Positions 2,734 to 64,000 of a stretch of 64,000 nt of DNA are shown piece by piece. The notes beneath the pieces were generated by a model. The model made no database searches. It was given only the letters and a program-made list of their open reading frames with translations, and was not told where the DNA came from. Position 1 is the first letter of the stretch. Each line of letters begins with the position of its first letter. Made by a program: the position numbers and the translations under genes. Source of the DNA: Candidatus Zixiibacteriota bacterium (GTDB lineage: Bacteria > Zixibacteria > MSB-5A5 > WJJR01 > JAJRUJ01); contig JAGVQM010000040.1 of the NCBI GenBank assembly GCA_020051695.1, forward strand, positions 1 through 64,000, written 5' to 3'.

Positions 2734-4279
<1,546 letters not shown>

Positions 4280-4411
4280 AAATATTCTTGCTTATTTTCC
4301 GCTCATAATGGAACACCAGTACAACATGTTCCTTCTTGACGTAGCCGAACCAGTTCCGAAAAACCAATTCAGCCCGCACCAATTCGATGCGATTACGCAC
4401 ACGCTATTTCG

Positions 4412-4424
4412 TTGTCAAAGAGCT
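4412..4424 (-). promoter_or_regulatory. boxA antitermination element before 16S
   Basis: Minus strand reads AGCTCTTTGACAA, matching boxA. It lies in the leader between the promoter and 16S, as in other rRNA operons; the copy before 23S at 2182 shares TTCTTTGACAAC-like core. Confidence 0.75.
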
Positions 4425-4455
4425 TTGCTACCCGCCGTACTTACGGCAGACGCAG

Positions 4456-4483
4456 AATCTAATACATAAAAATCTGCTGTCAA
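4456..4483 (-). promoter_or_regulatory. sigma-70 type rRNA promoter
   Basis: Minus strand: TTGACA (4478-4483), 16-nt spacer, TAGATT (4456-4461). A second TTGACA lies 15 nt further upstream and the region above is AT-rich, like an UP element. Predicted start of transcription is near 4449, giving a leader of about 170 nt before 16S. Confidence 0.75.
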
Positions 4484-4664
4484 GTGCTATGTTGTCAATC
4501 TTCGAAATATTTTTCAACAACTTCTATCGACATTGTCCCCGAGCGACTTAACCAACCGGTCTTTTCGCCCAACACACTCTACGCGCCAACATCCCGGTCG
4601 TTTGCTCATTACCGTAATCGGGTGACGTTTTCAGTAACTTCCTGTTAACCATCCACTTAGCAAA

Positions 4665-4737
4665 AGCCACCGAGCGGGGTCGAACCGCTGACCTGTCGAT
4701 TACGAATCGACTGCTCTACCAACTGAGCTACGGTGGC
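4665..4737 (-). tRNA. tRNA-Thr (anticodon CGT)
   Basis: Minus-strand cloverleaf: acceptor GCCACCG with CGGTGGC, D-arm AGCTCAGTTGGTAGAGC, anticodon loop TTCGTAA (CGT), T-arm GTTCGACCC. CCA is not encoded. It lies between tRNA-Phe and the rRNA promoter; whether transcripts run on into the rRNA leader cannot be told. Confidence 0.96.
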
Positions 4738-4856
4738 CCAATTCATTCGGTGTTTGTCTCTCCGTTACCTATCCACGAATGCCGGCTTCAGGCCGGACCT
4801 TTTACCCGTCTACTTCTTGTTGTCCGTCGCCATCATCTTCTGCGGGGTAAAAAAAA

Positions 4857-4929
<73 letters not shown>

Positions 4930-28687: not shown

Positions 28688-28921
28688 TTGTCCTCCGTTT
28701 TTACTTCATAAAGCGACGGTCTCCTCGGATGCGGATTTTTTGTTGGTAAGAAAACATTTCCGGCTCCGGGAGAGGAATCTTCCCGCTTGAGACCTGCCCG
28801 TTGGCAGGCCGTATTTTACCCTCGGTAAACCACTGTACCCCAGCGGTTTAATCTGCAGCCCCGCCGGTCCGGCGTGGCACGGTTTATGCAATATCGACCG
28901 TGATAATACAGGGGGAGGACC
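28688..28921 (+). other. Intergenic region before the 1.8-thousand-residue protein
   Basis: Contains a small hairpin CCTGCC-CGTT-GGCAGG (28794-28809) followed by a short T stretch, possibly a weak terminator for the kinase cluster, and near its end GATAATAC as a possible -10 element. No clear -35 was found. Confidence 0.4.
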
Positions 28922-55655: not shown

Positions 55656-58478
55656 CTATTTCAAATAGACCATGCGGCGAGAGACCGTCTCCCCGTTCCG
55701 CTCTGCAAGACGATAGAAATACACGCCGGAGGCCACGGCAATTCCCCGATAATCGCGGCCGTCCCATTCCACGCGGTGGATTCCCGGTTCCGATAATCCT
55801 TTAAACAGCGTAATCACTCTGCGGCCGAGGATATCGAAAACATCCAGGGAAATTTCCTCCGGTCCGCCGACGCCGACGGTGAATTCGATAATGGTCCGGC
55901 CGTTGAAGGGATTCGGGTAGTTTTGCGCCAAGGTGAAACGCGCCGGGATATTGTTTTCCGCTGCGTCCCCGGCGAAGGACTCTTCATCTTCGAGGATGCC
56001 GGTGCTGAGCCCCACCAGCCAATAGAGAATATCGGCGAGGATTTCAGTGCGACTGAGGCCATATTGCGGGTAGGTAGAATTCACCGCTTCGAATCCGAAT
56101 GCCCAAAATACAGTTTTGAATCCAGCGTGCGCATACGTAACCCCGGCAATTTTCCCGGATGAATAGAGCGTATCATAGATAAAACTCACCGAGGCACCCG
56201 CGACCGGTTCAAGGTTGTCGGGACTGTGTTGATTGGCCGCTGTCCCCGAACCACCTAAGACCAGCGAGATTCCATCACCGATAGGATCACCTGCAATACC
56301 ACGGACAAACGGCGGTTCAACAGTCGAACCACCAGCATAACGCGCACCAAGGTAATTGACCAGGAACAACGAATCGGCCGTTTTCGATAATTTTTCAGCG
56401 ATGTCCTGGCCGGTCAGAAACAATCGTCCGCCGGCATCCAGATATTGCTGCAACGCTGCGACGTCATCATGCACCAGCATCGAATCGGGACGATCAAGGC
56501 CGGTATACCAGCAGACCATGGGATAGCCCGTCAATAACCCCGGCGACGGCGAGCCGGAAAGGTCCTTATCGTATCCCTCATGAGGAATCCGCAAAGTGGT
56601 CAGCGCATCGGCGTAGTAATGGGCGTAATCTTTGCCCGAATACTGTGCATCATCATCAACGATCAGCACCTGCTTGGGCCCCAGGTCCACGCTCAGGGTT
56701 TCGGCAAAAGTGAACGCGCCGTCCTCGCAGGAATAGGTGATATAAAAGTCGCTGATGGTCGGTTGCATCCCGGCGGCGACAGTCAAGAGTATTTCATTCC
56801 CGGCATTATTCTGATCGTAGCTCTTGGTCCCCAATTGTGAGATCGTGTACGAATCCCTGGTGAAGATTACTTCCGGTGTCGAGCAGGATACCATGACCTC
56901 AATATTCGTGGTTGGTTTCCAGAAATTATACGTGGTGATGATCATTTCCACGGTTTCACCAGGGTCGGGAATATCGTCCCCGTCGCCGCTCTCGTCGTTA
57001 AACACATGGCTCGAGCAGACCAGCAGCGGCCGGGAATAGGTGACATCAAGATTGGCGGTCATGGCCGGGCCGGACGGCGAGATATTCCAGACAGCAACTT
57101 GTGTGGAAAGCGCCTCGCCATAGGCCCGCGAACCGGGCGTTGTCAGATCATCGAATTCCTGCGAGTTATTGTCATAAAGGTCCGTGCCGTCTCCCGGATT
57201 GCCGGCGTCATACCGCTCCAGATCATAATCGCCGTCGGCCTGCACCACTGCGACTTTGTAGTGCTGTGAGGGAATTCCCACGCCGGGAATATACTCATTG
57301 GTATTGTTGGATTTGTTTTCGTCACAATGCAAAAGCATCAAGCCGTCGTCAGGCAATTGGCTGTCGAACCCCGTACGCTGCCGGTTGCAGACCAGAAAAT
57401 ATTCATTGCCGGTAATGCCGGCCATCCACAGGCGGTAGATAGTCGGGGATTCAGCATACGCGGGGATCGCCTGATCGACCAGGTTGGTTTGCACATTGAC
57501 CACATTCACCCAGCCAAGGAATGATTTACACCAGGGATCGAAATGCGCCGGTGTCCGCGATTGATTCAAATAATTGCCGCTGCCCATAATCGACCAGTAC
57601 CCGACACCCCATGAGGAGAAATCCTGATCGTATAAATCGGGCAGACCGATAATATGCCCCCATTCATGGCACCAGACACCGATACCGTTGGTGGCTGTCC
57701 CGACCACCGGGCCATGCTCCTCGGGTTGTACGGTATATTCACGGACCATCTTACCGTCGAGAATAACCGGGGGATTGTCCGACAAAGTCCACTGGTGTGA
57801 TTGAATAGTCTGCGATTCCTCATCAGCGGCCTCTTCATAGCCGAAACCGGCGAAGATGACCATGACCCCGTCGACTTCGCCGTCACCATCGACATCATAG
57901 TCGGAGAAATCAATGTATGAATTTGCGGCGAGGAGCGCATCGCGGGCCAGGGTCTGTGAATTCGGTTCGATCGTGGAGATGCCATGGTCCGCCCCGACGT
58001 AATAGGCGTACGTGTCCGGCATCAGCAGGGGACCGACGACTTCGCCGGTGATATTAAACAGGCCATAAGAGTTTTCCTGGTAATATTCCCGCATGCTCCC
58101 GGTGGCAAACTCGCCTGCCGAATAAATCATGCTTTCGATCAATGCGGGGGATGTATATACCCGGCTGGCCCAGAGGTTATCGGAAAATTCGACAAGGATA
58201 CACGGGATACGGCTGGCAAATTGTTCGGTCTGGACTCCAGCGGCCAATTTGTGGGCGGGGCGTATCTGTGGTGTATCCATGCCGGCGGCCCGCGCGGCCT
58301 GGATACGCTGTTTGTGTATCTCCCAGCTCCCCTGTTCGATCAGCTGTTGTTTGGTCAGCGGGTGCAGATCGACAGCCCAGCCGGACGCCGCCGGAAACAG
58401 CAACAGCATCGCGCAGCTTGCCGACACCGCGACCCACCACATTATCGTCCGCTTTTGTCCGGTGCACGCCATCTCCAT
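55656..58478 (-). CDS. Secreted M6-family metalloprotease with sorting tail
   Basis: About 940 residues. Signal peptide near 12-34. Zinc motif Cys-His-Glu-Trp-Gly-His-Ile-Ile-Gly-Leu-Pro-Asp-Leu-Tyr is typical of M6 (immune inhibitor A-like) peptidases; calcium-type Asp-Val-Asp-Gly-Asp-Gly-Glu-Val-Asp lies before it. A later part has the CARDB-like Asp-Pro-Gly-Glu-Thr-Val-Glu and a Val-Leu-Ile-Val-Asp-Asp-Asp-Ala domain (about 615-800, putative Gingipain-like Rossmann). The C-terminus has Asn-Tyr-Pro-Asn-Pro-Phe-Asn and Arg-Met-Val-Tyr-Leu-Lys. Starts 16 nt after the S8 stop, so one operon. The first of several ATGs is 58478; SD favours 58472-58478. Confidence 0.9.
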   Translation of the reverse strand: MEMACTGQKRTIMWWVAVSASCAMLLLFPAASGWAVDLHPLTKQQLIEQGSWEIHKQRIQAARAAGMDTPQIRPAHKLAAGVQTEQFASRIPCILVEFSDNLWASRVYTSPALIESMIYSAGEFATGSMREYYQENSYGLFNITGEVVGPLLMPDTYAYYVGADHGISTIEPNSQTLARDALLAANSYIDFSDYDVDGDGEVDGVMVIFAGFGYEEAADEESQTIQSHQWTLSDNPPVILDGKMVREYTVQPEEHGPVVGTATNGIGVWCHEWGHIIGLPDLYDQDFSSWGVGYWSIMGSGNYLNQSRTPAHFDPWCKSFLGWVNVVNVQTNLVDQAIPAYAESPTIYRLWMAGITGNEYFLVCNRQRTGFDSQLPDDGLMLLHCDENKSNNTNEYIPGVGIPSQHYKVAVVQADGDYDLERYDAGNPGDGTDLYDNNSQEFDDLTTPGSRAYGEALSTQVAVWNISPSGPAMTANLDVTYSRPLLVCSSHVFNDESGDGDDIPDPGETVEMIITTYNFWKPTTNIEVMVSCSTPEVIFTRDSYTISQLGTKSYDQNNAGNEILLTVAAGMQPTISDFYITYSCEDGAFTFAETLSVDLGPKQVLIVDDDAQYSGKDYAHYYADALTTLRIPHEGYDKDLSGSPSPGLLTGYPMVCWYTGLDRPDSMLVHDDVAALQQYLDAGGRLFLTGQDIAEKLSKTADSLFLVNYLGARYAGGSTVEPPFVRGIAGDPIGDGISLVLGGSGTAANQHSPDNLEPVAGASVSFIYDTLYSSGKIAGVTYAHAGFKTVFWAFGFEAVNSTYPQYGLSRTEILADILYWLVGLSTGILEDEESFAGDAAENNIPARFTLAQNYPNPFNGRTIIEFTVGVGGPEEISLDVFDILGRRVITLFKGLSEPGIHRVEWDGRDYRGIAVASGVYFYRLAERNGETVSRRMVYLK

Positions 58479-58494
58479 TATCCTTTTGATCCGC

Positions 58495-61452
58495 TTACCT
58501 GAGTAAGACCATCTTGCGGGCCGCAACGCCGGTAGTTGATACGGCCCGAGTCAGATAGATGCCCGAAGCGACCGGCCGCCCGGCATCATCGGTACCATTC
58601 CACGTCACCGAATGGTTTCCTGCCGGGCAGTATTCGTCAAAAAGTGTCGCGATCTTGCGCCCGAGGATATCGTAGATCGCCACTGCGACCGGCCCCTCGG
58701 CCGACACCGCGAAATCTATACGTGTTTCCGGATTAAACGGATTGGGATAATTCTGGTACAAGACCAGGTCGTATTCGCGCGGCCGGTTGGTTTCATCATC
58801 AGTGACATCAGTGGTGATAGAATACCGGTTGCGTGCGGTCGCGGCGGCCGCATAAAACTCGGCAACGGACGCGCCGGAACATAAAGCGAACGTGACGGTC
58901 ACCGAATCGCCCTGGGCCAGATCGTAAGGTCCGGCGCCGATGAAGCCGCACCAGTCGGCCGCAGTATTTTCATCGGGATGAATAACGCCCTCAGTAATTG
59001 ATTGCATCTTCTCGGTGTCGGAGAAACCGCGTTTGCCGGACTCATTGGCGTAAAACCGCGCGGCCCCTAAAGGCGCGTTGAGCAGCACCACACCCACGGT
59101 CGGGCTGGACAAATCAAGGTAGTGATAAAAAAGGTCTTCGGCGGCATCGAGGGTAACCTTCTCCCCGCCCAGGTCACCGGGGAAATCCCAATCGGAGAAC
59201 AGCCCGACATGCAGCCCGTTAAGATCGGCGCCCGCGTCGTTGATCAGCGTGTATTCCATAATAATACAGCGGTCACCCGGAGCCGCGCCGAAGGCCGCGG
59301 CATGCTGGCGGACGGTGACCCCCAGCGGATTTTCCGCGCGGATGTCGGCATATTCGGCGTTCACCTGCTGGTCACCAAGCAGGCCCGGCACAAAGGTGTC
59401 CAGCGGACTCGGCGATGCCGGCTTGAAATCAACATTGTATTTCCCGGAGACGCCGTTGCGCATGGCATCCGAAACGTCATCCCCCGCACCGAGTACCAGT
59501 GCGGCCTCATACAAATGATTGCCGCCCGCGGCGGGAACATCATAACCCCTGCCGCCCAACGGGACGTACGAATCCGGATGCAGACCAAGCATACCGAAAT
59601 TCGACACCGTCAGGGCCACCGCACCAAAATCAAGAGTGTTCCAGCGGCCGTTGTGCGGCACGCCCAGGACAATATAAAAATCGCGCTGGAGGTGGCCGGT
59701 AATGCCTGAACCGGCCAGCGACAGGGTAAAATGAACCGTATCGCCAAGAGGCAGTGAGGAATCGGTCGAAATGATGAAAGGATCGCTGCTGTTGTCCCGC
59801 TCGCCGCCGACGGCAAGATCACCGAAATACGCGGTGTCTTTGTCGATCCGGATTCCCGGCTCGATACTCGACAGGTAGCCGATCACGCTGGTTGCCCCGG
59901 CCACGTCACCATGCAAGGCGACAATCAGGTTACCCGTTTCGCGGGGGTCAAGCAGGTCGTTGCCGCCCTCGGCAAAGAGGATATCGGTGATGTGCGGTTC
60001 GGGGTTTGTCGACGCAGGGAGCAGCTCAAAGGCAGCGGCGAGGTCGATGAAACCCATGCCCGATTCGTTGTCTTCGCCGGGTTGGTCCACATCGATGGCG
60101 GTGACCAGAATTGCCGATTTAATCTGCTCGGGGGTCAGGTCGGGATTGTACTGGCGGAACAGGGCCACGGCAGCGGCAACATGCGGCGCCGACATCGACG
60201 TGCCGTTAATCAGCTTATAATCTCCGTCTTTATATGACGAGCGGATGGCAACGCCGGGGGCGACGACTTCCGGTTTCTTGTCGGCGAAATCGCAGGGGGA
60301 CGGCCCGCGCGAAGAGAACGAGGCGACGGGCAGTTCACTGTCCGTGGCATCGACCGAACCCACGGAAAACGTATTGACCAGCGAACTGGTGCGAGTCGCC
60401 GGGTTGCGGATCGTCATGGAGTTTGGACCTTCGTTGCCCGCGGCAAAAATGCACACGATGCCGAGCGATTCCAGGTTGTCGATGGCTTCCCAGAATTTCT
60501 GATCGCAGGGCTGCATGAACCCGGTGGGGATACCCCAGGAATTGCACACGACATCGGGAACATCGTCCATCGTCCGGGGATCGCCGTCGGGATTGGCCGC
60601 CCACTGGAACGCACTGAGGATATCGCTCATCGTCTGGGGGAGCGCCTTGCCCCGGTCAATGACCGCCGCACTGATCCAGCGCGCGTCGGGGGCCAGCCCG
60701 ATTGTATCGGCCCCGTCATGACCGACCATGATGCCCATCACGTGGGTGCCGTGGCCGCTGGCATCATCGGGGAACATGGTGCCGTACGGATCAAACCAGC
60801 AGGCGGCAGTGTCGGTAGTGTAGTTGCCGCGCCACTTGGCGTATAAGGCCGCGTGACTACCCTTGACTCCGGTATCAAAACTGCAGATGAGCCGTCCCGA
60901 GCCGGTCAGCCCCCGGTCCCATAATGCCCGGGCGCCGACAGCCACCAGGTTTTCAGCCGCCCCAACCTGGGCTGCAGCGGCGGCCGAGGTTCCCACCGGT
61001 TCAATCAATCCCACCGGCAGGTCACTGATGATCTGAGCGACATCGTCGCGGCCGGCAAGTTGCTCGATGACTGCGCTTGTCGCCCGCAGGTAAATCATAT
61101 TGGTAATCCAGTAGGGTTTAAACGTCGTGACTGCGCCGGAAGCCAGTTCGTTTTGCAGCAACTTGATCAATTCGGCCTGGGCGGCCACGGTTTTTCTCTG
61201 TAGTTGCTGATATGCGGTCTGGTATCGTTCCGTAAATGCGCCCCGCTTGCGGGCCAGGACGGAAGTTTCCATGCTGATTTGATCGCCGCCAGCGAGGACC
61301 ACGATGGCTTCGACGAAACCGTCCGAGGCGGCAGAATCGATCATGGCGAGCAACTGTGCATCAATTTTCACTGCCCCGGAGACAGCCGCGGGAATTAACC
61401 AGCCAACAAGCAGAGTAATAATGAAATAAAAAATGGTATGTCTAAGTTTCAT
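58495..61452 (-). CDS. Secreted S8 subtilisin-like protease with sorting tail
   Basis: About 985 residues from ATG 61452 (GGGAGACAAG upstream). Signal segment (5-26), propeptide-like region, then S8 domain: Asp in Ser-Phe-Asp-Thr-Gly, His in Gly-His-Gly-Thr-His-Val, Ser in Gly-Thr-Ser-Met-Ser-Ala-Pro-His. A beta region with two Ig-like parts follows, and the tail begins Asn-Tyr-Pro-Asn-Pro-Phe-Asn and ends Lys-Met-Val-Leu-Leu-Arg. Together with the M6 enzyme it forms a secreted peptidase operon. The frame is open a further 42 codons upstream, but those lie in the leader. Confidence 0.92.
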   Translation of the reverse strand: MKLRHTIFYFIITLLVGWLIPAAVSGAVKIDAQLLAMIDSAASDGFVEAIVVLAGGDQISMETSVLARKRGAFTERYQTAYQQLQRKTVAAQAELIKLLQNELASGAVTTFKPYWITNMIYLRATSAVIEQLAGRDDVAQIISDLPVGLIEPVGTSAAAAAQVGAAENLVAVGARALWDRGLTGSGRLICSFDTGVKGSHAALYAKWRGNYTTDTAACWFDPYGTMFPDDASGHGTHVMGIMVGHDGADTIGLAPDARWISAAVIDRGKALPQTMSDILSAFQWAANPDGDPRTMDDVPDVVCNSWGIPTGFMQPCDQKFWEAIDNLESLGIVCIFAAGNEGPNSMTIRNPATRTSSLVNTFSVGSVDATDSELPVASFSSRGPSPCDFADKKPEVVAPGVAIRSSYKDGDYKLINGTSMSAPHVAAAVALFRQYNPDLTPEQIKSAILVTAIDVDQPGEDNESGMGFIDLAAAFELLPASTNPEPHITDILFAEGGNDLLDPRETGNLIVALHGDVAGATSVIGYLSSIEPGIRIDKDTAYFGDLAVGGERDNSSDPFIISTDSSLPLGDTVHFTLSLAGSGITGHLQRDFYIVLGVPHNGRWNTLDFGAVALTVSNFGMLGLHPDSYVPLGGRGYDVPAAGGNHLYEAALVLGAGDDVSDAMRNGVSGKYNVDFKPASPSPLDTFVPGLLGDQQVNAEYADIRAENPLGVTVRQHAAAFGAAPGDRCIIMEYTLINDAGADLNGLHVGLFSDWDFPGDLGGEKVTLDAAEDLFYHYLDLSSPTVGVVLLNAPLGAARFYANESGKRGFSDTEKMQSITEGVIHPDENTAADWCGFIGAGPYDLAQGDSVTVTFALCSGASVAEFYAAAATARNRYSITTDVTDDETNRPREYDLVLYQNYPNPFNPETRIDFAVSAEGPVAVAIYDILGRKIATLFDEYCPAGNHSVTWNGTDDAGRPVASGIYLTRAVSTTGVAARKMVLLR

Positions 61453-61476: not shown

Positions 61477-61530
61477 CCTCTTGCGCAAAAGGGGTGCCCG
61501 AACCGACCTGCCCGGCGAAATGATGTCGGC
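61477..61530 (-). promoter_or_regulatory. Shared leader element, copy A
   Basis: Upstream of the S8 gene by 24 nt. The minus strand contains TCGGGCAC-CCC-TT-TTGCGCAAGAGG and, 15 nt before that, GCCGACA. Copy B is at 63757-63813. 21 of 27 bases agree over the core. May be RNA; this is a candidate only. Confidence 0.5.
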
Positions 61531-61594
61531 TATGTTTCCGACAAAAATCTCGGCAAAGCAGGTCCCCCAATTGACCAATCAACAATAAGTTATG

Positions 61595-61600
61595 ATTATA
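61595..61600 (-). promoter_or_regulatory. -10 element of the S8-M6 operon
   Basis: Minus strand GACTATAATCA. The -35 is poor at normal spacing. It would give a leader of about 135 nt that contains the hairpin and copy A. Confidence 0.45.
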
Positions 61601-61964
61601 GTCTTTCTCCTGCCCCCAGTGTCTCCTCCACAGAGATGCGTTCAACTCCACCACAAGGCGCTGGAGAGTCTGCAAATCAATGCACGCTCATCTGCTTTAC
61701 CCGCTTGATTATGCAACAAGCTGCGCAATGCAATCCATTCCTCCACCGCGTCACCGCCACCCAGCAAATTCATTGGGGATTCGAGTTCCTGCTCGGCGCG
61801 TCAGTTGCGGTTTCCACATAGATAAGATAACAATTTATGTGATTTTATCAAGTCAGGGCAGAGTATTATATATTGCGTCACTTTAAATAAATTGCGTAAT
61901 ATAATAGATATGAATGCTTTAAAAGAATTTCAATGAGCTGGGATGTTCTCTGTGACGTGGGGTT

Positions 61965-61994
61965 GCCCGGCCGTCGGAGGTCGCACGGCCGGGC
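61965..61994 (-). terminator. GC-rich 10-bp hairpin after the 567-residue gene
   Basis: Minus strand GCCCGGCCGT / ACGGCCGGGC, loop of 10 nt, 21 nt past the stop at 62015. No U-run follows, so termination is uncertain; RNA stabilising or Rho-assisted end are options. Confidence 0.5.
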
Positions 61995-62014
61995 GGCTAG
62001 ATGTAGCGCGAGTT

Positions 62015-63718
62015 TTATTTCATCAATAACATTTTGCGGGTCTGAGATTGGCCGCCGGTACTCAAGCGATAGAAATAGATCCCGCTGGTCACCCGGCGTC
62101 CCTGATCGTCGCTGCCATCCCATAATATCTGATGGTCCCCTGCCCCCTGAATGCCGAGGTCAAAATTGCGGACGCGCTGGCCCAGAGTGTTGTAGACCGT
62201 CAGCGTGACATACGCCATCTCCGGCAAAGCATAACTGATGGTCGTCTGCGGGTTGAAGGGATTGGGGTAATTCTGTGCTAGTGCGAACGCCGCAGGATGT
62301 ACACCGTCTTCGCCCTCGACAATGCCGACCGAACTATTATACACGGCACGGATCATCCAGTCGGCGTAGGGCCAGGCGGTCCAGCCCTGTGATTTATCAT
62401 ACCACATCGACCGGCCGTCTACATTCATAGTGTCTGAGGCCACACCAGGGGTCGTCGGTGTATTGGACAACCATTCCAGCACAACAAAGAAGTGCCCGGC
62501 GGTAATCAGCGGTTGCGTGCTCTCCGGGATCGAGACCTCAGCCCAACCGGGAGCGAAGGCCGAATTGACCGTGAACGGTCCGGCCATGACGGTGCCGGGT
62601 TGTCCCATACCGGCGGTAGTCACGGAAAGCTTGAACGGCGTGGTCTCATTCACATAGACGCGGAGTTTGCTGACGGTGATCGGAAAGGTCGTGGGCGTGA
62701 ATAGGACGGCGAAGGCGTTATCGTTAGCGGCGACTTCGGACACAATCAGGAATTGCGCGGGCCAGCCGTCGTCATATTTCAACTGCCGTCCGGGCAGGGT
62801 CGTGTATTGATACGGCGCGGCTGCGCCGCCGGCAGGTTCAGTTGCCTGATTATGCGCCGGAGCGCTGTCAATGACTTCCAGGTAGTACTTGATCGTGGTC
62901 AACGGCAACTGCCCCGGGATTGTTGCCCGATACAACCCCTGAATCAGCGACATGGGAACAGTATTGTACGAGGCGCCCATATTTGTCGAATAACGCAAGT
63001 TGACAGACTGCAGACCGCTAGCATCGGTGATTGCCGCAGTGATCGGGGTTTGGCCATCCTCGGCAAAAGCGGAATTGTCGGGATAGTGCAGGACCACCGG
63101 CGCCGAGACATCTTCACCATATAGCTGGACATAGGCCCGGATATTCATATCGACATCCTCGACCCAGTCCCAGGCCTGCGTCGGCCCGCGGTACCAGGTG
63201 CGGCCGGTCCCCCCGTCACCGTCGCCGGTAATGTGCGGTCCTTCAAGATCGACCACCTTGATACTGATAAAAAAGTCGCCCGCACCGACATCGAACGGCG
63301 TATCGAATGAAATCTGTTGGCGGCTGGCGTCGCCGCTGGCGTCAAAACTGATAGCGGACGTCAAGGCGGTGACCGGACCATTGGTACTGTCGCCGTCGTA
63401 AATCGTTACGGCGACGAGGCCCCCGGTCCCGGATTCATCATATGTAGTCAACTCGAAATACGATAACTTGCACGCCTGAGGTGGAGAAAACCGGACGGCC
63501 CACTCGGCGCCCAGCGAGTCCATGGTTGGAAAATAATATTCCGGGTCTGAATCATACGCCAACTTGGTCTCCCCGGCCGTGGCGGCCAGGCTCAATACCG
63601 GCGTCTGCGGCTGGTTGTAGACCGTGTTACTCGGGACTTTTTCGGCCAAATCCAGGTCCAGGGCGACGACCGGCGTGGCGGCCATCAGCAAACCGGCGAT
63701 CAGTAGTACGTATCTCAT
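62015..63718 (-). CDS. Secreted modular protein with sorting tail
   Basis: 567 residues, signal peptide to about 19 (Val-Val-Ala-Leu). First part resembles a jelly-roll domain (about 60-200), then an Ig-like 'Asn-x-Arg-Tyr-Ser' domain (about 205-300), a second jelly-roll-like domain (about 310-460), and the C-terminal Asn-Tyr-Pro-Asn-Pro-Phe-Asn-Pro tail ending Lys-Met-Leu-Leu-Met-Lys. No catalytic motif seen; possibly a carbohydrate- or peptide-binding partner. Its leader carries copy B of the shared element. Confidence 0.8.
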   Translation of the reverse strand: MRYVLLIAGLLMAATPVVALDLDLAEKVPSNTVYNQPQTPVLSLAATAGETKLAYDSDPEYYFPTMDSLGAEWAVRFSPPQACKLSYFELTTYDESGTGGLVAVTIYDGDSTNGPVTALTSAISFDASGDASRQQISFDTPFDVGAGDFFISIKVVDLEGPHITGDGDGGTGRTWYRGPTQAWDWVEDVDMNIRAYVQLYGEDVSAPVVLHYPDNSAFAEDGQTPITAAITDASGLQSVNLRYSTNMGASYNTVPMSLIQGLYRATIPGQLPLTTIKYYLEVIDSAPAHNQATEPAGGAAAPYQYTTLPGRQLKYDDGWPAQFLIVSEVAANDNAFAVLFTPTTFPITVSKLRVYVNETTPFKLSVTTAGMGQPGTVMAGPFTVNSAFAPGWAEVSIPESTQPLITAGHFFVVLEWLSNTPTTPGVASDTMNVDGRSMWYDKSQGWTAWPYADWMIRAVYNSSVGIVEGEDGVHPAAFALAQNYPNPFNPQTTISYALPEMAYVTLTVYNTLGQRVRNFDLGIQGAGDHQILWDGSDDQGRRVTSGIYFYRLSTGGQSQTRKMLLMK

Positions 63719-64000
63719 GCGCTACTCCCTTCGTGACGGGACACGTTTGTACGAAAACCCCTTGCGCAAGCGGCATGCCCGATCACCGGCCGGATAGGAT
63801 TCCCGCTGTCGGCGGCACCAAGTTCGGGGCAACTGCATGCCGGATAACGAAAACCATATCCCCGAGCGGAGTCGGGATGAAACTCACCGGCTGCCGATGG
63901 GTATGATTCTCCTGCAACCGGATGCACATATGGTGCGTGGCTGGTGGATAACTACGAAGAAAATGGAGACCGGCACGAGCGCACGCAAAATGTCGGACGG
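63719..64000 (-). other. Leader and upstream region of the 567-residue gene, to window edge
   Basis: 282 nt without a credible gene. Contains the shared element (63757-63813). No clear -10/-35 was found. Several GC-rich inverted repeats (for example CCCCGAGCGGAGTCGGG, 63860-63876) suggest a structured leader. Confidence 0.6.
63757..63813 (-). promoter_or_regulatory. Shared leader element, copy B
   Basis: 38 nt before the ATG of the 567-residue gene. The minus strand contains GCCGACA, then 37 nt later TTGCGCAAGGGG with TCGGGCATGCC just before it. See copy A at 61477-61530. Confidence 0.5.

Follow-up and report, generated by a model that had tools for sequence, protein, structure and literature searches.

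What is the short sequence that two secreted-protein genes of a Candidatus Zixiibacteriota bacterium share shortly ahead of their start codons? The stretch of 64,000 nucleotides analyzed here (the window) carries on its minus strand a gene for an S8 (subtilase) peptidase and a gene for a secreted protein of 567 residues, and the original prediction described before each of them a leader element, made up of a conserved core and the heptamer GCCGACA, that might be a cis-acting RNA or an operator. The other end of the window holds a 16S-23S rRNA operon with tRNA genes (2743-4929, minus strand). We compared the two upstream regions with each other, with the rest of the genome and with the corresponding regions in relatives; the features discussed are collected in Table 1.

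Two copies of one core

The core is present before both genes. Copy A (TCGGGCACCCCTTTTGCGCAAGAGG, 61477-61501) precedes the S8 gene and copy B (TCGGGCATGCCGCTTGCGCAAGGGG, 63758-63782) precedes the 567-residue gene, both on the minus strand and about 2.3 kb apart, with 20 of 25 bases identical and at the distances from the start codons (ATG at 61452 and at 63718) that had been given originally. With up to three mismatches allowed, the 3.53-Mb genome contained no copy beyond these two, and the reversed pattern had none. The heptamer GCCGACA is incidental rather than part of the element, for 33 copies of it turn up in the window when both strands are counted. Its supposed pairing with TGTCGG does find a perfect partner in copy A but is absent from copy B and from the homologues; we also rejected this dyad as an activator site, because it is not common to both copies and is frequent by chance.

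The two genes had been described as otherwise unrelated, which does not hold: both encode a T9SS type A / FlgD-Ig tail, and their homologues adjoin in at least nine relatives (G001, G005, G007, G008, G017, G024, G036, G041 and G057), so that the pair represents an old neighbourhood. About 48 T9SS type A tails score above the cut-off in the genome, and the full 567-residue protein, used as a query, retrieved mostly tail matches from many phyla. The M6 metallopeptidase gene, which adjoins the S8 gene and has its true start downstream of the listed TTG, is probably in the S8 operon; in 12 of 30 loci, this one included, S8 is followed by an M6 relative.

Table 1. Features of the window and genes coupled to the upstream element elsewhere in the genome
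Feature	Position	Strand	Description and evidence
Predicted sigma-54 -24/-12 promoter, S8 gene	61485..61498	-	GGCACCCCTTTTGC; consensus match, within copy A; homologue spacing, logo
Predicted sigma-54 -24/-12 promoter, 567-aa gene	63766..63779	-	GGCATGCCGCTTGC; consensus match, within copy B; homologue sites
Putative enhancer (activator) site, copy A	61671..61684	-	TGCATTGATTTGCA; TGCA-N6-TGCA; recurs before S8 homologues
Putative enhancer (activator) site, copy B	63913..63926	-	TGCATCCGGTTGCA; TGCA-N6-TGCA; also upstream of the G001 homologue
TGTCGG-N8-CCGACA dyad	61524..61543	.	Probably incidental; without counterpart in copy B or homologues
Further sigma-54-like site	28874..28890	+	GTGGCACGGTTTATGCA; matrix score 14.4, best in window; before a T9SS-tailed gene (1818-aa frame)
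S8 (subtilase) peptidase gene, 985 aa	58495..61452	-	PF00082 (E 6.5e-49), PF13860 (FlgD-Ig), TIGR04183 (T9SS type A tail)
M6 metallopeptidase gene	55656..58526	-	PF05547, TIGR03296, TIGR04183 (T9SS type A tail); next gene downstream of S8
567-aa secreted protein gene	62015..63718	-	PF13860 (FlgD-Ig), PF18962, TIGR04183 (T9SS type A tail)
Coupled gene C26			T9SS-tailed protein (955-aa frame)
Coupled gene C14:269181	L332 3442-4221 (G000:C14)	-	259-aa protein, PEP-CTERM-like end IPEPATLLLLGSGLVGGMVVRRRRK; TGCA-N6-TGCA 111 bp upstream of the sigma-54 site
Coupled gene C17			164-aa protein
Coupled gene C14:106410			214-aa protein
Coupled gene C3			Response-regulator-like

The core as a probable sigma-54 promoter

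The sigma-54 -24/-12 consensus is TGGCAC-N5-TTGCW (PMC12316311), and a list of bound sites is available (PMC3844500). Both copies fit GGCAY-N5-TTGC with GG and GC ten bases apart, and they resemble known sigma-54 promoters in this fixed spacing, in the TTGC box, in their position before a gene and in a host that has rpoN and activators; they depart from the consensus chiefly at -26, where each has a G for the usual T, and the -12 box in this class is extended to TTGCTCAA or TTGCGCAA. Counting 12 bases on from the -12 C places the predicted transcription starts at about 61473 (S8) and about 63754 (567-residue gene), which would leave short leaders, some 21 and 36 nt long; because these starts fall just downstream of the shared core, the core would lie upstream of the predicted RNA. 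With a probability of about 0.93, and judging from sequence comparison, we interpret the shared element as a pair of sigma-54 (RpoN) -24/-12 promoters, one per gene, each with a putative enhancer upstream. The -24/-12 core by itself is not significantly rare in the window (3 found versus 3.3 expected); its significance derives from genome-wide evidence, from relatives and from the second element described below, rather than from its frequency in the window.

The machinery that such promoters require is encoded: the genome has one rpoN (PF04552, 193 bits) and 18 strong Sigma54_activat (PF00158) proteins, that is, enhancer-binding activators, and rpoN was found in 94 of the 98 genomes of the class. 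In genome-wide counts (pattern searches plus fetched stretches), GGCAYN5TTGC occurs 106 times versus 55 for the reversed pattern. Upstream of 50 T9SS-tailed genes, a matrix scan found 10 sigma-54 sites of at least 11 bits, compared with 3 for the opposite strand and none for the reversed matrix (scores are relative, since the matrix encodes the known consensus and was not trained).

Homologues of the S8 protein occur in 97 of 98 genomes. Of 70 regions ahead of S8 homologues, 50 contain GGCA-N6-TTGC, whereas the other spacings from 0 to 11 give 0-3, the opposite strand at most 3 and the reversed pattern at most 1 (these homologues, like the others counted here, are not independent of one another). 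In a logo of 59 such sites GG is invariant (100%), C and A stand at 95% each, TTGC at 90-100% and T at -11 at 73%, with almost no information in the flanks, and the sites lie mostly 15-60 nt ahead of the start codon. The -12 box in most of these sites extends to TTGCTCAA (later positions C 75%, A 71%, A 61%), compared with TTGCGCAA in this genome and the shorter textbook TTGCW; TTGCGCAA as an operator palindrome was rejected, most homologues having the TTGCTCAA-like sequence instead. In G001, the nearest relative, GGCATCCCATTTGCGCAA stands 27 nt ahead of the start of the S8 homologue, and 12 of 17 homologues of the 567-residue gene have a sigma-54 site upstream. Some lineages (for example, L303, L306 and L314) have no site before the S8 homologue. 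The strict 25-base pattern is only slightly above control in relatives, one match (G034) being the promoter of its S8 homologue. Copies exist in relatives at the expected place before the same gene class, as had been anticipated, albeit as a promoter and not as an RNA.

A second element further upstream

A second shared element, TGCA-N6-TGCA, had been missed in the original prediction; it was first suggested by dyads upstream of S8 promoters. Exactly two occurrences exist in the window, one ahead of the S8 gene and one ahead of the 567-residue gene, at 186 bp (copy A) and 147 bp (copy B) upstream of the respective promoters. Among the 59 S8-homologue upstream regions, the half-sites are spaced by 6 in 24, by 5 in 6, by 0-4 or 7-9 in 0 or 1, and by 14-16 in at most 10; this last excess may reflect tandem half-sites. 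The genome has 41 occurrences, versus 12 of the reversed pattern.

The element is coupled to sigma-54 sites in the genome. Among the 100 listed of the 106 sigma-54 sites, TGCA-N6-TGCA lies 60-300 bp upstream of GGCAYN5TTGC in 7 cases, versus 0.28 expected (Poisson P 2e-8, in a test made post hoc after the motif had been noticed in S8 upstream regions), and at the same distance downstream in none. Two of the seven couplings are the window's own sites and five are independent of them (Table 1; some of the coupled genes were judged from their translations alone). A looser sigma-54 site with an upstream TGCA-N6-TGCA also precedes a 2180-residue T9SS-tailed protein on C37. TGCA-N6-TGCA is therefore well supported as a shared element, and we infer that an activator binds there. 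No TGCA-N6-TGCA was found near the high-scoring site at 28874-28890, which may thus answer to another activator.

The explanation that competes best with a common activator accepts the sigma-54 promoters and assigns a different activator to each gene, TGCA-N6-TGCA being there by chance or serving some unrelated factor. It draws on the lack of an exact TGCA-N6-TGCA in 35 of the 59 S8-homologue regions and in most homologues of the 567-residue gene, on the 18 activators that the genome has to offer, and on the fact that in the one activator gene that bears TGCA-N6-TGCA the element is not conserved. We nevertheless judge it unlikely, while according it some weight, given that the sole two occurrences in 64 kb precede these genes, that one TGCA spacing is preferred, that the excess of couplings falls entirely on the upstream side, and that the AtoC site of Escherichia coli is laid out in the same way. 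That site, the enhancer of atoDAEB (GCTATGCAGAAATTTGCACA, -184 to -165; PMC3118216), serves other target genes, and none of the 10 of 18 activators that were scanned reaches the AtoC family cut-off.

The activator gene just mentioned, L055 (also L346, G000:C6:117648-119012), encodes receiver, AAA+ and Fis-type HTH domains of the NtrC/AtoC type, is conserved in 32 of 38 relatives and scores closest to the AtoC family among the 10 activators scanned (454 bits versus a cut-off of 714). In this genome only, TGCA-N6-TGCA lies 287 bp before its start; it is upstream of the homologue in none of 29 loci, and L055 was rejected on this ground as an autoregulated cognate activator. A PrsR is also present (L050, 528.6 bits versus the TIGR02915 cut-off of 502.6), and was rejected as the activator because its described motif differs from TGCA-N6-TGCA. 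The same genome has the PEP-CTERM-like 259-residue gene (L332) behind a sigma-54 site and a TGCA-N6-TGCA.

Leader RNA, chance and duplication

A cis-acting leader RNA in the 5' untranslated region, riboswitch-like or protein-binding, is the reading that the position of the core shortly ahead of the start codon and a hairpin that can be drawn in copy A would favour. The two leaders, however, fold no better than shuffled sequences (z -0.94, +0.85, -0.41 and +1.54), and RNAalifold on 25 homologous regions gave three nearly invariant pairs without a compensatory change, against the covariation expected of an RNA. Rfam matched nothing in the element, and rRNA and tRNA were its sole hits in the window; this agrees with the original view that no known riboswitch is involved. 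The conserved part coincides exactly with a -24/-12 promoter, in its fixed spacing and with uninformative flanks. We regard an RNA as highly improbable. Of the earlier alternative between cis RNA and operator, the RNA fails on folding, covariation and position, the core is better read as the promoter, and what resembles an operator is TGCA-N6-TGCA, about 150-190 bp further upstream; the broader idea of a cis element linking genes for extracellular proteins, peptidases included, stands. A chance or recently duplicated likeness of two neighbouring upstream regions, to which the 2.3-kb distance and the ordinary frequency of the core in the window might point, is refuted by conservation: across many families of the class the core keeps its place ahead of the homologous genes while the flanks have diverged. 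We give this reading next to no credence.

Relation to known systems

That sigma-54 controls the cell exterior is a familiar theme (PMC3162934). The remFG-sprCDBF operon of Flavobacterium psychrophilum, which encodes a T9SS cargo adhesin, is driven by a sigma-54 promoter that was tested by mutagenesis (PMC9723704); the likeness lies in sigma-54 control of genes with T9SS-exported products, and the differences are that this is an adhesin operon of Bacteroidetes and that the evidence here is comparative only. PEP-CTERM genes have a two-part upstream element of activator site and sigma-54 box, with PrsK/PrsR (PMC1569441). There too, genes with a common carboxyl-terminal sorting signal share an activator site and a -24/-12 box, but the PrsR motif contains TTTACA and is separated from the -24/-12 box by about 63 nt, and the window's genes have T9SS type A tails in place of PEP-CTERM. 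A search of the open-access literature found no paper linking Zixibacteria to either RpoN or type IX secretion. The present case is a predicted, conserved sigma-54 regulon of secreted proteins in an uncultured class, and its kind, activator plus sigma-54, is already known.

Proposed mechanism and implications

In the mechanism that we propose, sigma-54 polymerase would wait as a closed complex at -24/-12, and an activator of the NtrC/AtoC family, switched on by its sensor, would sit at TGCA-N6-TGCA and contact the waiting polymerase, on which the promoter would open. The S8 peptidase (probably the M6 peptidase too) and the 567-residue protein, all three T9SS-tailed, would be turned on together. 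Transcription start at these sites, binding at the upstream site, the involvement of an activator and the sensing of a signal are each predicted from sequence; the arrangement suggests that a single signal-dependent activator turns on the genes for these extracellular proteins jointly. For the class as a whole, we lean somewhat towards an ancient sigma-54 regulon in which one AtoC-type two-component activator, acting at TGCA-N6-TGCA, would control T9SS-tailed exoproteins (S8, M6, the 567-residue protein and others).

If this is correct, extracellular proteolysis would be coupled to one sensed signal. On the sigma-54 reading in general, the sigma-54 box together with TGCA-N6-TGCA offers a readable regulatory code for secreted-protein genes in a class without genetics, from which regulons could be predicted and the activator sought. 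It would be one more case of sigma-54 governing the cell exterior, here through genes with T9SS-type sorting tails, and an apparent orphan leader RNA would become a promoter of a well-understood kind.
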